From a virus, in IMG/VR virus record IMGVR_UViG_3300045971_000456, positions 1 through 20,544 of that record: a stretch of 20,544 nucleotides of DNA. One strand, written 5' to 3'. How positions within the stretch are numbered: the first letter of the stretch is position 1; the number at the start of each line of letters is the position of its first letter. The notes beneath the pieces were generated by a model. It made no database searches, was not told the DNA's origin, and saw nothing but the letters and a program-made list of their open reading frames with translations. This document shows positions 1 through 6,814 of this stretch, in pieces. A program made the translations under genes and the position numbers.

Positions 1-279
1 GTCGTGATCAATCGGCATCCCGACTCGCGGCAGGGCGTTCCGAAGCGCCTCGTGCGCGGTTCCCGTTCGCATCTTCGCCGCCAGCAGGGCGCTCGTCGCT
101 CGCTCCATCTTCTCGGTCAGCCGCATGATCAGTTCGTGCGAGGCCGCGATCTGCTTGTCCTTCCTCGCCAGCGCGCAGCACACCGACAGGCAGGAGTCGG
201 CCACTCCCAGTTCGTGGCAGGCGCACGGACAGTCAGCGTCGATCCGTTCGTCCTGCACCGGCAGAAGTCCATCGCTCAT
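1..279 (-). CDS. Partial Cys-rich hypothetical phage protein (runs off the left edge)
   Basis: An open frame of 93 codons starts at ATG 279 and continues without a stop to base 1, so the C-terminus lies outside the window. The N-terminal third is rich in cysteine (CPCACHE at about residues 18-24, then SCLSVCC at about residues 31-37), which suggests metal binding. The rest looks helical with many Ala, Leu, Lys and Glu. The start is supported by a purine-rich GGGGA a few bases upstream, and that RBS plus start lies inside a 34-bp repeat also found at 839-872. It is the last visible gene of the leftward operon. I do not recognise the family. The reading frame is convincing from codon use and coupling; the function is unknown. 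Confidence 0.65.
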   Translation of the reverse strand, partial: MSDGLLPVQDERIDADCPCACHELGVADSCLSVCCALARKDKQIAASHELIMRLTEKMERATSALLAAKMRTGTAHEALRNALPRVGMPIDHD

Positions 280-2619: not shown

Positions 2620-3591
2620 CTACTTTGCCTCCTGCTCGGCCTTCTCGGCGACGAGCGCATTCAGCCGGTCGTTCAGCTTCACGAGCCCGGCCGCGTTGGT
2701 GGTGTTCTCCGTCAGGAACTTGAGAGCCTTCGACTCGATCTCGCCGCCGACGACCTTGGCCTTGCGCTCGATCTCCGAGCGGAGCGCCTCGGGGTTGGTC
2801 GGCGCCGCTGCCTTCACCGCCGCCTCGAAGTCGTCCCAGTTGAGGGGGAGCGAGTCCGGGACGAAGTACCGATCCTTCGCGTCGAACGCGGCCGACGGCT
2901 GGGTGCAGAGGACCCGCGCTCCGGTAGAGATCCCCTTCACGCGCTCGCCCTTCTTCTTCGCCTGCGCGAACGTCTCGAACTGCGCGAAGTAGACGCCCTT
3001 CACCCACTGCCGCATGAGCGCCGCCGACTTGTCGTGCATGGCGACGACGTACCGCTCGTAGTCCTCGCCCTCCGGGTTCACAAACTTCTTGATCACAGAG
3101 TGGGCGAGCAGGATCACGTGCATACCGCGAGCGGCCTGGAGGCGTTCCACCGCGGCCAGGAAGACGCGCCACCCGTCGACCGCGGCGGTGAACCCTTTCC
3201 CGTAGCCTCCGCCGACTTCCTCGATGCTGTCGGCGTTCGCGGTCTTGCAGATCTGAGCCCAGAGGAGCGGCTCGGCCCAGTCGACCGTGTCTACGACGAG
3301 CGTCTTGAACCCGCCCGCGTCGACCGTGAGCGCGCGGATCGCGTCGAGCACGTCCTCCCAGCTCTCGGGCGCCGGGAACCGGGCGACGTCCAGGTGGCCG
3401 GTGCCGTCCTCGGTTCCGAGGAAGATTGGCTTCGGGGCGCTTGCGCCGAAGGTGCTCTTGCCAACGCCATCCCTGCCATGGACGAGGAGCCGGTAGGGGG
3501 CCTGCACGACGCCCGTCGTGATGCTCGCGAGCGTCATGCGGTTCACGCGGGCCGCCGCGGCGGTGGGCTTCATCGGGGTCACGAGTGCCAT
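2620..3591 (-). CDS. Sak4-like RecA-family recombinase/annealing ATPase
   Basis: This is a 323-aa protein starting at ATG 3591, with AGGAG placed just upstream. It has a Walker A motif GRDGVGKST (residues 39-47), a Walker B strand TLVVDTVDW (97-105) and a following LLAHS segment (about 161-165). This order and spacing are typical of the phage AAA_24/Sak4 proteins, minimal RecA-core ATPases with single-strand annealing activity. The extended C-terminus is helical and charged. It lies between the PD-(D/E)XK nuclease and an SSB with eight- and two-base gaps, so the three are probably made together as a recombination set. It could alternatively be an uncharacterised RecA-like NTPase in replication, but the neighbours favour recombination. 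Confidence 0.85.
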   Translation of the reverse strand: MALVTPMKPTAAAARVNRMTLASITTGVVQAPYRLLVHGRDGVGKSTFGASAPKPIFLGTEDGTGHLDVARFPAPESWEDVLDAIRALTVDAGGFKTLVVDTVDWAEPLLWAQICKTANADSIEEVGGGYGKGFTAAVDGWRVFLAAVERLQAARGMHVILLAHSVIKKFVNPEGEDYERYVVAMHDKSAALMRQWVKGVYFAQFETFAQAKKKGERVKGISTGARVLCTQPSAAFDAKDRYFVPDSLPLNWDDFEAAVKAAAPTNPEALRSEIERKAKVVGGEIESKALKFLTENTTNAAGLVKLNDRLNALVAEKAEQEAK

Positions 3592-3599
3592 GGGAGCTC

Positions 3600-4655
3600 C
3601 TACGCGGCCTCTGCCGCGCCGTTCAGTTCAGGGTGGACGTCGTCGAGCTTGCGGAACTGGGTGGTGTCGTCGAGCGAGCCTTCCCCGGAGCACACCGGCA
3701 GGAAGGCGCAGCTCCGGCCGTACCGGAGGCAACTGTTCGGATTGCGGGGCCACCGGCCGATCTTGTTGGCCTCGTGGAGCTGCTGCGCGAGCTGCCACGC
3801 GTCGAAGATCGCGTCGTCGACCTCACCGCCCAGCCGGACGACCTCGCCGCGGGCGTAGAAGGCGGCCGGGTTCTCGCCGATGACGCCGACCAGGCGGTTC
3901 CGGTACTCCGTCGCGGTCTCGGGTCGGGACTGGAGGACGTAGCCGGCGGCGGCGTCGGCTGTCTCCCGCCACTTCTTCCCGTCCTTCGTTCGCACCCGCT
4001 GCCCGGACGCGTCGAGGACGATCTTCGCGCCCGCCTCGTCCACGAGCGGGATCGCCGAGGGGCGCTGCAAGGGCTTCTTGACCACGTCGTAGATACAGAA
4101 GTCGACGGGCCTACCCAGCAGCACTTCGCCGCCCGCGTAGTAATTCGACACCTGTGGGTCCATGCGAAGGCGCCGCCAGTAATCGGTGCCGACCCCGACG
4201 TCCTCCGTGCTCGACTTGTGCTCCAGCACTCCGAGCCGACCCGTCGCGATCTCGCGAACGAGTCCGTCGAGCTTGCCGCCCAGCTGCCAGGTTCGAGAGG
4301 GCATGCCCGTGACCGGGTTCCGCAGCGGCGCGAGGAACTCCGCCTCGATTCCCAGCACCTCGTAGAGGTCCGCGTCGGCGAGCCACCGGGTGTCGTAGCC
4401 CACCATGAGCGCCGTCGCCTTCGCCCGGTCGAACTCGTCTGCCTCCGCCAACTCCAGGACCTGGAGAGCGTCGGCGAGCCGGTCCGCCTTCGAGCGCAAC
4501 CACGCGTTCAGCCCGAGGTGCAGGAGCAACCCGAATCTCAGCGTCTCAGCCAGACCGGCCGGCCGGTACCCCAGGTGATAGGCGATGTGGTGCTCTCTCT
4601 GGCAGCGCCGCGCGCACGCCATGCGAGACGTCGTCAGGATCGGGAGGTCGCTCAC
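3600..4655 (-). CDS. Cas4/RecB-like PD-(D/E)XK exonuclease with probable Fe-S cluster
   Basis: This is a 351-aa protein. I chose GTG 4655 because it overlaps the stop of the newly noticed small gene 4652-4768 (GTGA); the longer frame to 4814 would run across the promoter. The nuclease motifs are in order: GLLLH (His46), GKLDG (Asp130), LEHKS (Glu145, Lys147) and QVSNYY (Gln168, Tyr172), matching the RecB/Cas4 nuclease family. Cysteines at 14 and 18 and a C-terminal set at 309, 316 and 322 match the split-cysteine arrangement that holds a 4Fe-4S cluster in Cas4 and AddB. It would resect double-stranded ends to give substrate for the adjacent Sak4-like protein and SSB. The nuclease family is clear; the cluster and polarity are inferred. 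Confidence 0.85.
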   Translation of the reverse strand: MSDLPILTTSRMACARRCQREHHIAYHLGYRPAGLAETLRFGLLLHLGLNAWLRSKADRLADALQVLELAEADEFDRAKATALMVGYDTRWLADADLYEVLGIEAEFLAPLRNPVTGMPSRTWQLGGKLDGLVREIATGRLGVLEHKSSTEDVGVGTDYWRRLRMDPQVSNYYAGGEVLLGRPVDFCIYDVVKKPLQRPSAIPLVDEAGAKIVLDASGQRVRTKDGKKWRETADAAAGYVLQSRPETATEYRNRLVGVIGENPAAFYARGEVVRLGGEVDDAIFDAWQLAQQLHEANKIGRWPRNPNSCLRYGRSCAFLPVCSGEGSLDDTTQFRKLDDVHPELNGAAEAA

Positions 4656-4768
4656 GGCGACCACCGAAGCGCAGCGAAGAGCGTGGCGATCAGTCCAAGG
4701 AAACACGCCGTCTCCCACGCGAGGCAGAGCCACTCGTGGCGGAAGTCGGAAGGGGTCGGGGTGGGCAT
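4652..4768 (-). CDS. 38-aa single-span membrane peptide, first gene of the leftward operon
   Basis: ATG 4768 opens a 38-codon frame (MPTPTPSDFRHEW...) with a hydrophobic helix covering roughly residues 14-34 (LCLAWETACFLGLIATLF within it) and ends ...RWSP. Its TGA at 4652-4654 overlaps the GTG of the nuclease gene, which supports translation of both. It is the first start after the presumptive PL promoter, with ATG only about eight bases beyond the -10 position and no Shine-Dalgarno sequence, so it may be read from a leaderless transcript. In lambda this position holds N, but this peptide is a membrane protein and not an antiterminator. The function is unknown. Confidence 0.55.
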   Translation of the reverse strand: MPTPTPSDFRHEWLCLAWETACFLGLIATLFAALRWSP

Positions 4769-4775
4769 GGCGGGA

Positions 4776-4809
4776 ACAGTAGTCATATGACACCACGTTG
4801 TCAAGTGAC
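4776..4809 (-). promoter_or_regulatory. Candidate PL promoter with two GTCANNTGAC operators
   Basis: On the minus strand TTGACA (4804-4799) is followed after 17 bases by TACTGT (4781-4776, a weak -10). Operator-like palindromes GTCATATGAC (4782-4791) and GTCAAGTGAC (4800-4809) lie in the spacer and over the -35, centres 18 bp apart. A 17-bp block, 4795-4811, is repeated in inverted orientation at 6057-6073. Binding by the repressor at 5730-6014 would block RNA polymerase here. Promoter strength cannot be judged because the -10 matches only three of six consensus bases. Confidence 0.6.
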
Positions 4810-4853
4810 GCCACGATGACCGCGCCTCCGGCCAGGACAGCGGGGGAGGGCGG

Positions 4854-5108
4854 CTACTTCCGGCGCGCCCGCAGGGAGCGGGCAGCGGCCATCGTCGACA
4901 GGAAGGACAAGGCGGACGAGGCCCGTGCCGCCGCCTGGGCCAGAGCGGGAGGGGAGCGACGGGCTCGCCCCAGGACGACGCTCAGTTGCCGCATGGCGGT
5001 GACCGACTCCGCCTCTGCCTCAGCGAGGAGGTCCCTGGACCGCAGAGCTTCGTCCGCAGATCGGGGCGTGCGGACTCGCGCGGTAATGGGACGCTTGCTC
5101 GGTGGCAT
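4854..5108 (-). CDS. 84-aa hypothetical protein of the immunity region
   Basis: ATG 5108 is chosen because the predicted protein from there (MPPSKRPITARV...) has consistent codon use; the frame also allows ATG 5153. The protein has a basic N-terminus, a central acidic helix (LLAEAEAESVTAM) and a basic Ala/Arg-rich C-terminus. There is no good ribosome-binding site (only GAAGA). A plus-strand frame over the same DNA (from ATG 4816) also has high GC at third positions, so the strand choice is not certain. If real, it lies between the repressor operon and PL, the place rexB occupies in lambda. The family is not recognised. Confidence 0.4.
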   Translation of the reverse strand: MPPSKRPITARVRTPRSADEALRSRDLLAEAEAESVTAMRQLSVVLGRARRSPPALAQAAARASSALSFLSTMAAARSLRARRK

Positions 5109-5142
5109 TCTTCGTCGGTAACACGGCCCACCGACATGAGAA

Positions 5143-5177
5143 GAATGGGCCATTCCTCAGACGGTCTCGGCCGTCTG
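5143..5177. terminator. Two adjacent perfect inverted repeats, possible terminator after the zinc-ribbon gene
   Basis: GAATGG-G-CCATTC (5143-5155) is followed by CAGACGG-(6)-CCGTCTG (5158-5177). The second hairpin lies about 22 bases beyond the stop of the leftward gene 5200-5709. Neither is followed by a T-run in either direction, so a classical intrinsic terminator is not proven. They could instead be protein-binding sites. Confidence 0.4.
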
Positions 5178-5199
5178 GCGCCCTTCGAAAGCCCTGCCG

Positions 5200-5709
5200 T
5201 TACTGCTGTTTCACGGACACCGCGGTCCAACCGTTCTTTCCGTCCGACTTGGTCCGGCAGTTCACGACCACCTGACGCAGCGCGCCGAATCCATTCTTGG
5301 CTCGGCCCTTGACCTGGACGAGGAAAACGCCGCCCTTTTCCTCTCGAACCGGGAACGTGTAGAAGTCGTCGAGCGCCGCGCCGTCGGGGTCGTGCAGCGA
5401 CGCCAGTACGAACTTCTCGCAGGCATACTGCGCCGAGGTGGTGCGCTTCTCCTTCTCCTTCGCGGCCTGCTCCGCGGCGAGCTGCTCGGGGCTCAACTTC
5501 GCGACGCGAGCCGCCTCCGTTGCGGCCGCCGTCTCCTTGATCTGGCTGCCAGTCACCGTGCCCGCGACCATCGAAACCGCGATCAGGGCGAAGAACACCG
5601 CGGCGACGGTCGCGAGCAGCCCGGAGCGGAGCTTCTTTCCGCAGTGAGGGCACGTCTTCGCGGAGCTACTCACGTCGGCGCTGCACTCGGGACACTTCTT
5701 CAGGGCCAT
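5200..5709 (-). CDS. Zinc-ribbon single-span membrane protein, in lambda rex position
   Basis: This is a 169-aa protein starting at ATG 5709 with GGAGG five bases upstream. Residues 1-26 form a zinc ribbon (CPECSADVSSSAKTCPHCGKK). Residues about 29-52 form a transmembrane helix, followed by an Ala/Glu/Lys-rich coiled segment to about residue 90. The C-terminal ~75 residues form a compact domain beginning ACEKFVLASLHDPDGA and ending near a second cysteine (VVVNCRT), similar to domains seen in other phage and bacterial zinc-ribbon membrane proteins. It lies 20 bases after the repressor stop and is probably cotranscribed with it, hence expressed in the lysogen. That is the setting of lambda rex and of many prophage exclusion genes, but no defence function is shown by the sequence itself. 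Confidence 0.75.
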   Translation of the reverse strand: MALKKCPECSADVSSSAKTCPHCGKKLRSGLLATVAAVFFALIAVSMVAGTVTGSQIKETAAATEAARVAKLSPEQLAAEQAAKEKEKRTTSAQYACEKFVLASLHDPDGAALDDFYTFPVREEKGGVFLVQVKGRAKNGFGALRQVVVNCRTKSDGKNGWTAVSVKQQ

Positions 5710-5729
5710 GGCCGCCTCCGCGTGGGCGT

Positions 5730-6014
5730 CTACCGCCTCTTCGGTGGCGTGTACTCTACGTCAAACCACTCACGCGGAGGATCCCTGTCGGAGAGATAGT
5801 CGAGGCTCACCCCAAGTTTCCGATGCACCAGGAGCAGGACGTCGAGCCCAGGAGTCCGCTCGCCCTTCAGGTAGCGACCGAGCGCGCTCCGCGACATCCC
5901 CAAGGCGTCGGCCATCCCCGCGACGCTGTCGAATCTCTGCTCCCACATCAGGAGCCGCATGTTCGCTGCGATCCGCTGCCGGGTCTTCAAGTCCACGGTG
6001 GTCTTGGGAGCCAT
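5730..6014 (-). CDS. Lambda CI/XRE-type repressor (N-terminal HTH only)
   Basis: This is a 94-aa protein. ATG 6014 is preferred; GTG codons at 6017 and 6047 are alternatives, but 6047 overlaps a degenerate operator. The HTH spans about residues 31-55 (SVAGMADALGMSRSALGRYL), followed by KGERTPGLDVLLLVHRKLGVSLDYL, the usual XRE pattern. There is no C-terminal peptidase domain, so it cannot self-cleave like CI; induction would need another route, such as an antirepressor. It faces away from the Cro-like gene at 6101 across the operator region. The likely targets are the GTCANNTGAC sites at PR and PL. Confidence 0.8.
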   Translation of the reverse strand: MAPKTTVDLKTRQRIAANMRLLMWEQRFDSVAGMADALGMSRSALGRYLKGERTPGLDVLLLVHRKLGVSLDYLSDRDPPREWFDVEYTPPKRR

Positions 6015-6042
6015 CACGCCAGATGGTATGTGGGCGCCAGTT

Positions 6043-6092
6043 GTCACGGGGCTACCGCGTCACTTGACAACGTAGTCATATGACACCAGTAT
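6043..6092 (+). promoter_or_regulatory. Candidate PR control region with operators at 16-bp spacing
   Basis: GTCACTTGAC (6059-6068) and GTCATATGAC (6075-6084) match GTCANNTGAC, with centres 16 bp apart. A third, degenerate site beginning GTCA at 6043 lies exactly another 16 bp back. The -35 TTGACA (6064-6069) overlaps the middle site, and a weak -10 (CAGTAT, 6087-6092) follows after 17 bases. The region lies between the repressor and the Cro-like gene. It parallels lambda OR1-OR3, but the sites are much shorter. Confidence 0.6.
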
Positions 6093-6331: not shown

Positions 6332-6402
6332 GTCGTGAACCGCCATGTCCGCTTCCACCTTGTCTCGAAGCGTGCCCGAACCCAACAGGTCACCCCCATA
6401 CA

Positions 6403-6421
6403 AAAGGGCGTGATCCCCTTT
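6403..6421 (+). promoter_or_regulatory. Hairpin immediately before the ribosome-binding site of the next gene
   Basis: AAAGGG (6403-6408) and CCCTTT (6416-6421) can pair around a seven-base loop, ending one base before GGAGG (6422-6426). It could influence translation of the gene starting at 6431 or be an operator. The 100-base stretch between the Cro-like stop and that start holds nothing else I can identify. Confidence 0.3.
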
Positions 6422-6430
6422 GGAGGCTCC

Positions 6431-6814
6431 GTGGCAAAGGCCCCACCGAACGACCAGCAGCTGCCCCTCATACCCGTCTCGTCCCACCACCGGGAGAACG
6501 GGCGCCGAATCCTCCACCTCGTGAACGTTGCCATGCGCGAGAACGGCGTCTCCCGCTCCCGCCTGGCCGATGAGACCGGCGTGGACCATGCCCAGGTGAC
6601 GCGCGTGCTGGACGGGGAGGGGAACCTACCGCCCGGCCTCATCGCCGCCGTCCTCGAGCTCGACCGAGCTCGCGTCCTTGTCGGCGGCCTCTGCGCGCTG
6701 TCGGGATGCGAGGCGATCGAGAAGAAGCCGGACCCGGCTGCCGAGAACAAGCGCCTCCGCAGCGAGCTGATCGAGATGCGCGAGCACCTGACCAAGATCC
6801 TGGGGGAGCCGTGA
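6431..6814 (+). CDS. HTH DNA-binding protein with C-terminal coiled coil
   Basis: This is a 127-aa protein. The frame is open back to GTG 6335, but GTG 6431 has GGAGG four bases upstream and is preferred. An HTH lies at about residues 26-65 (ILHLVNVAMRENGVSRSRLA, DETGVDHAQVTRVLDG). The C-terminal ~35 residues are a charged Leu-rich helix (ENKRLRSELIEMREHLTKIL) suited to dimerisation. It lies between the Cro-like gene and replication genes, where lambda-type phages carry a CII-like activator. A CII-like role is possible by position, though I cannot assign the family. Confidence 0.6.
   Translation: MAKAPPNDQQLPLIPVSSHHRENGRRILHLVNVAMRENGVSRSRLADETGVDHAQVTRVLDGEGNLPPGLIAAVLELDRARVLVGGLCALSGCEAIEKKPDPAAENKRLRSELIEMREHLTKILGEP

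Follow-up and report, generated by a model that had tools for sequence, protein, structure and literature searches.

The switches of phages lambda and 434 provide the layout with which the locus described here is best compared. A repressor and cro diverge from a tripartite OR, the same operator recurs at PL before the recombination operon, accessory genes follow the repressor, the repressor message is leaderless (a prediction in our case) and heteroimmune relatives swap repressor and operators together. The locus differs from them in having a repressor of 94 amino acids without the C-terminal cleavage and cooperativity domain, OR operators that are 16 bp long and abut, two OL sites instead of three, and a cro gene that is also predicted to be leaderless; the sequence kinship seen with these systems is that of HTH_3. 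The paaR2/ydaS region of CP-933P is likewise lambdoid in layout; its repressor is not of the CI type and is translated from a leaderless message, a YdaS-like HTH protein takes the Cro role, and palindromes recur at even intervals in the intergenic region as well as at PL (PMC8630535). Its repeats, however, are of an 18-bp GTTTAGTAA type, four of them intergenic, and its operon contains toxin-antitoxin genes (PMC8630535), whereas the Cro-like protein of our locus scored 20.9 bits against YdaS_toxin (PF15943), under the cut-off of 30. Mycobacteriophage BPs also employs a small repressor (gp33, active as gp33-103) with a 12-bp palindrome, CGACATATGTCG, and paired sites (PMC4557955), but these sites are bipartite with a highly variable second half, its immunity is integration-dependent, and its five binding loci are not a lambda-like OL/OR pair (PMC4557955). 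Finally, the C.Esp1396I-type controllers of restriction-modification systems are small HTH proteins that bind as dimers to short palindromes in tandem, with GAC/GTC half-sites and an outer TG; some of these sites are strong and some weak, and one is part of a -35 box (PMC3758141). Those proteins control restriction genes (PMC3758141), while none was identified near our locus. In function, CP-933P, the BPs repressor and the restriction-modification controllers are the closer parallels, the layout being that of lambda.

The locus lies in a virus fragment from IMG/VR, 20,544 bases long and without an attached host genome; this whole stretch is referred to here as the window. A sequence-only reading had drawn attention to a 17-bp block, GCGTCACTTGACAACGT, at 6057-6073 and inverted at 4795-4811. 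Both copies matched exactly, and no others turned up when as many as 3 mismatches were allowed (shuffled expectation 0.02). The TTGACA hexamers (6064-6069 on the plus strand, 4799-4804 on the minus strand) and the four short palindromes were also placed as that reading had them, far above shuffle expectation: the core GTCANNTGAC occurs at 4782, 4800, 6059 and 6075 against 0.30 expected occurrences, four being reached in no shuffle. A chance repeat was ruled out by the shuffles and by conservation across lineages. All four cores fall in two pairs flanking the repressor unit, and the gene map confirmed the repressor and two further genes between the blocks (Table 1). The pairing proposed earlier is real, although its spacing is unequal, 16 bp from centre to centre on the right and 18 bp on the left; on the right the two noted sites stand, but the region is tripartite, a third site (OR3, core at 6043-6052) having been overlooked.

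Table 1. Predicted operators, promoters and genes of the locus (positions in the window unless a relative is named)
Feature	Position	Strand	Description
OR1	6072..6087		core GTCATATGAC 6075-6084; in PR spacer; matrix rank 1-2; conserved in 4/4 lineages
OR2	6056..6071		core GTCACTTGAC 6059-6068; over PR -35 hexamer; rank 4; conserved in 3/4, degenerate in L013
OR3	6040..6055		core GTCACGGGGC 6043-6052; over PRM -35 region; rank 5
OL2	4797..4812		core GTCAAGTGAC 4800-4809; over PL -35 hexamer; rank 3; core identical in 4/4 lineages
OL1	4779..4794		core GTCATATGAC 4782-4791; abuts PL -10 hexamer; rank 1-2; conserved in 4/4 lineages
PR	6064..6092	+	TTGACA - 17 bp - CAGTAT, 8 nt before cro ATG
PL	4776..4804	-	TTGACA - 17 bp - TACTGT
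PRM -10 hexamer	6023..6028	-	TACCAT, exactly 8 nt before repressor start codon
Repressor, 94 aa	5730..6014	-	single HTH_3 domain, Pfam 3.1e-10
Cro-like HTH protein, 76 aa	6101..6331	+	weak HTH_3 1.3e-4; PHROG transcriptional repressor 2.7e-6
Third HTH regulator, CII position	6335..6814	+	function inferred from position only
Zinc ribbon + membrane segment protein, rex-like position	5200..5709	-	Zn_ribbon_3 4.9e-7
Small conserved gene, end of repressor unit	4854..5108	-	same-place counterparts in L053, L057, L013, L010 (19-43% identity)
Inverted repeat of small gene	5038-5108; L053:6597-6663; L057:2038-2104; L010:5649-5718		
Possible 38-aa membrane peptide, first gene under PL	4652..4768	-	reading frame only; start 7 nt after -10
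PD-(D/E)XK exonuclease, left operon	3600..4655	-	PDDEXK_1 5e-10; PHROG exonuclease 5.6e-20
Sak4-like recombinase, left operon	2620..3591	-	AAA_24 2.7e-44; PHROG Sak4-like 1.4e-41

Relatives were gathered with the exonuclease, the repressor and repressor alignments as queries, hence by way of proteins and not of operator sites, and three further lineages were obtained. L053 is a contig of an uncultured Anaeromyxobacter MAG, L013 another IMG/VR phage with a near-copy, L051, and L057 a contig from a different genome of the same phylum as the L053 MAG; their repressors are 84, 57 and 51% identical to that of the window, respectively. As the window and L053 are close relatives, only three of the four lineages are really divergent. 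The divergent repressor/cro pair with sites at both ends is common to all of them. Another contig, L006, is 99.9% identical to the window over 11.1 kb and is therefore not independent. Its integrase-like frame and excisionase-like HTH gene, both absent from the window, support a temperate life style. These HTH_17 excisionase-like and integrase-like genes occupy L006:11108-12620, and the window counterpart (1-848) is unrelated in sequence, the left ends differing between two near-identical phages or their assemblies. The integrase family PF00589 was seen only in the relative L007, the L006 frame belonging to another family. The Sak4 query retrieved just one contig, the near-identical one; megablast against phage records gave no match, and at the protein level the repressor gave weak partial matches only. 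Searching IMG/VR in reverse for paired sites returned 32 contigs, about the chance number by a rough estimate, among which the close repressor homologues were those of the known lineages and L069 showed a weak HTH match beside the sites; a looser PL pattern yielded no additional lineage. In L069 (321-349), a phage contig, GTCAACTGAC-N9-GTCAGCTGAC is located just 5' of a small HTH gene whose product bears a weak resemblance to the repressor and to Cro alike, and it may be a distant cousin of this switch. The host is most likely an Anaeromyxobacter-type myxobacterium, an assignment to be taken as a lead since MAG contigs can be misbinned.

The layout, two operators at PL upstream of the left operon and three in the divergent PR/PRM region, is maintained in the four lineages. 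The centres of OR1, OR2 and OR3 are separated by exactly 16 and 16 bp in all of them, and those of the OL pair by 18 or 19 bp. Alignment of 20 sites, five from each lineage, revealed a K/M pair within the dyad and, symmetrically about it, a G at position -3 (19 of 20 sites) and a C at +13 (17 of 20), the symmetry being conserved 3 bp past the 10-bp core on either side. The compact 10-bp site of the sequence-only reading was abandoned on account of these outer G/C positions, and the operator is, as read from the aligned sites, a 16-bp palindrome, GKNGTCANNTGACNMC, of a length comparable to known phage operators. Repeated at 16-bp steps, the three OR sites thus abut without a gap. One half of OR3 is off consensus in the four lineages (GYCC for GTCA), so that on the other strand it reads GYCCNNTGAC. 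A matrix derived from L013 and L057 alone ranked the five sites of the window 1 to 5 among all positions, and cross-lineage matrices also ranked the five sites of L053 and of L057 at the top and recovered four of the five in L013, results that indicate one code fitting all rather than a blind discovery, as the five sites per lineage were chosen with the motif in mind. The missing one, OR2 of L013, is degenerate, hence not every site would be essential. In the window and L053, GTCA-N2-TGAC was also picked by a motif-free palindrome search. Within the OR region, identity between divergent lineages is 71-92% for the core columns, versus 40-43% for the other intergenic columns. Only two sites were found in OL, where a third one was looked for; the next-best scores of the window sit elsewhere and below the five sites.

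The sites are not frequent elsewhere, a point on which the original proposal had been made to depend: the window holds no other, and of the 21 GTCANNTGAC occurrences in the 5.1-Mb MAG of L053 only the four of its immunity region are clustered on one contig. The core is absent from related phage loci without the window-type repressor, and in 32 such loci (366 kb) no clustered sites were detected, three isolated matches scoring like real sites. In one of these relatives, L010, the exonuclease and the third regulator are homologous to those of the window, but repressor and Cro differ, and TTGG-N7-CCAA palindromes (TTGGC-N5-GCCAA in the motif-free search) take the same two places, one of them containing the PL -35 hexamer. 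The joint replacement of repressor and operators fits the heteroimmunity of lambdoid phages, on the strength of one case; the L011 palindromes, considered as a second one, were dropped, since one sits in coding sequence. The conservation of the sites in the three lineages with the same repressor and their replacement in L010 support the earlier reading of the two regions as OL/PL and OR/PR, recognised by a repressor of distinct specificity. Apart from the phages, GTCATATGACYGRCYGGTCACATG recurs over the start codon of a TetR-family gene in L090, L094, L101, L102 and L104, of the same phylum; it is probably the operator of that gene, and its likeness to the phage sites probably arose by convergence.

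At PL and PR, TTGACA or a hexamer with one change lies in or overlaps an operator core, and a second operator is placed between -35 and -10. The PR counterparts in the relatives are TTGACA/CATGAT, TTGACT/CATAGT and TTGACG/CATACT, and PL conforms to TTGAC[AG] - 17/18 - TAC[AT][GC]T in the four lineages. The PRM -10 is TACCAT or TAACCT in all four, at a constant 8 nt from the repressor start and 14 bp from OR3, which occupies the place of the -35, no recognisable -35 hexamer being present at PRM. The -10 hexamers fit the Escherichia coli consensus poorly, that of PR being weak, and this consensus may not be the one of the host. Since start codons follow the -10 by 6-8 nt at PR in the four lineages and by 8 nt at PRM, the repressor and cro messages are probably both leaderless. 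If transcription starts at the ATG, the OR2 centre would be near -49.5 relative to PRM; its lambda counterpart, from which bound repressor activates PRM, is centred near -42. Lambda cI and CP-933P paaR2 are known cases of leaderless messages (PMC8630535).

The repressor belongs to the HTH_3 (Cro/C1-type) family, with 40.4 bits over a cut-off of 23, and scored 29.7 bits against the RstR family NF041951, under the cut-off of 80. Its structure was predicted, with only three sequences behind the model, as a single helical domain (pLDDT 85) with the HTH at 31-49; the best PDB matches of the model include SinR, C.AhdI, TP901-1 CI and lambda CI N-domains, with weak E-values, and the PDB sequence search gave no match. 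Compared with the lambda CI/LexA-like family it has the HTH domain only and no C-terminal S24 peptidase domain, which makes induction by self-cleavage unlikely. The Cro-like homologues of the other lineages are 72, 46 and 49% identical to that of the window, and an R-x(4)-R pattern is common to the recognition helices of repressor and Cro in the four lineages. The third regulator has homologues in L013, L057 and L010, and gave no CII match in profile searches (Pfam, PHROG).

The gene order is that of a lambda-type early region: on the plus strand the Cro-like and third HTH genes are followed by replication genes, RusA and lambda-type head genes, including the gpA terminase and a lambda-family portal. 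Which gene follows the repressor differs from lineage to lineage (window 5200-5709; L053:6306-6556; L013:6196-6402; L057 about 1450-1980). Judged by eye, these encode apparently membrane or exported proteins, and they are candidates for superinfection exclusion or lysogenic conversion; L013 and L057 gave no homologue of the zinc-ribbon gene. An inverted repeat of GTCCGC...GCGGAC type lies in the first codons of the small conserved gene; its GGGGTCCGCGGCCG is shared without change by L053, L057 and L010, the heteroimmune relative, and the repeat may be an RNA element, a DNA element or a module boundary. In-frame tandem repeats (SSQVG-type units) lie at L013:7430-7700, within a gene of its PL operon; there the L013/L051 alignment splits into many repeat matches.

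As the sites and their places are preserved among divergent phages that share the repressor, the palindromes almost certainly serve as protein-binding sites of a phage lysis-lysogeny switch, and the locus is very probably the immunity region of a temperate phage with a lambda-like repressor/operator switch. The conservation and spacing of the sites, their co-inheritance with the repressor, their replacement in L010 and the promoter geometry are observed, while binding by repressor or Cro, the dimer state, the order of occupation and PRM autoregulation are inferred. Three HTH proteins are encoded at the locus and the Cro homologues travel with the same sites, so the palindromes might serve the Cro-like protein or the third regulator only, the repressor binding elsewhere. 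This seems improbable, as a lysogen must silence both PL and PR and the region yielded no further repeated palindrome; moreover, the R-x(4)-R shared by repressor and Cro is expected if both read one half-site, and the third regulator is not the only protein they serve, since L010 has a homologue of it but lacks the sites.

It is very improbable that the blocks are mere duplicated promoters, the repeat being kept for PL and PR and not as protein sites. TTGACA is indeed within the repeat and the repeats coincide with promoters, but OR3 lies outside PL and PR, conservation extends to the half-sites beyond the hexamers and to the outer G/C in its symmetric positions, the spacing is fixed in OR, and position 3 of the PL -10 is a C in the four lineages, against the promoter consensus and matching the operator. 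The unit could also be conceived as everted, adjacent palindromes forming TGAC-N6-GTCA in the manner of certain TetR-type sites, and GTCATATGACYGRCYGGTCACATG over a TetR gene start in genomes of the phylum would speak for it; very little credit can be given to this arrangement, however, because its gap varies (N6, N8, N9) while GTCANNTGAC does not, the flanks are conserved symmetrically around the inner dyad, and no TetR gene was found at the locus.

In the lambda-like switch preferred here, the HTH_3 repressor would bind the 16-bp operators as a dimer. OL1 and OL2 cover the spacer and -35 of PL, the promoter of the left recombination operon. With these two and OR1/OR2 occupied, RNA polymerase would be kept off PL and PR, so that both promoters would be shut and lysogeny maintained. 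Given its location in the -35 place of PRM, a protein on OR3 should shut this promoter. OR3, a weak match to the consensus, would do so at high repressor level; alternatively, the Cro-like protein would block repressor synthesis there after induction. As the repressor has no cleavable domain, release from repression would require an antirepressor or similar. At 16-bp steps, adjacent dimers would sit almost on opposite faces of the helix. Tentatively, and with more doubt than confidence, it may be proposed that the gap-free 48-bp array of three operators provides bistability without a cooperativity domain, abutting dimers making contact through the DNA or by wrapping around it; both key messages would be leaderless and induction would depend on an antirepressor.

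In the literature searched, no lysis-lysogeny switch was described for phages of Anaeromyxobacter-type myxobacteria, and no relevant paper was retrieved, by title or abstract, with the core sequence. The switch is of the classical lambda/434 kind with a DNA code of its own, not a new kind of system. The locus offers a predicted operator code, four natural variants of it and one heteroimmune comparator, which make repressor specificity, the cooperativity of abutting dimers without a C-terminal domain and leaderless early messages directly testable.
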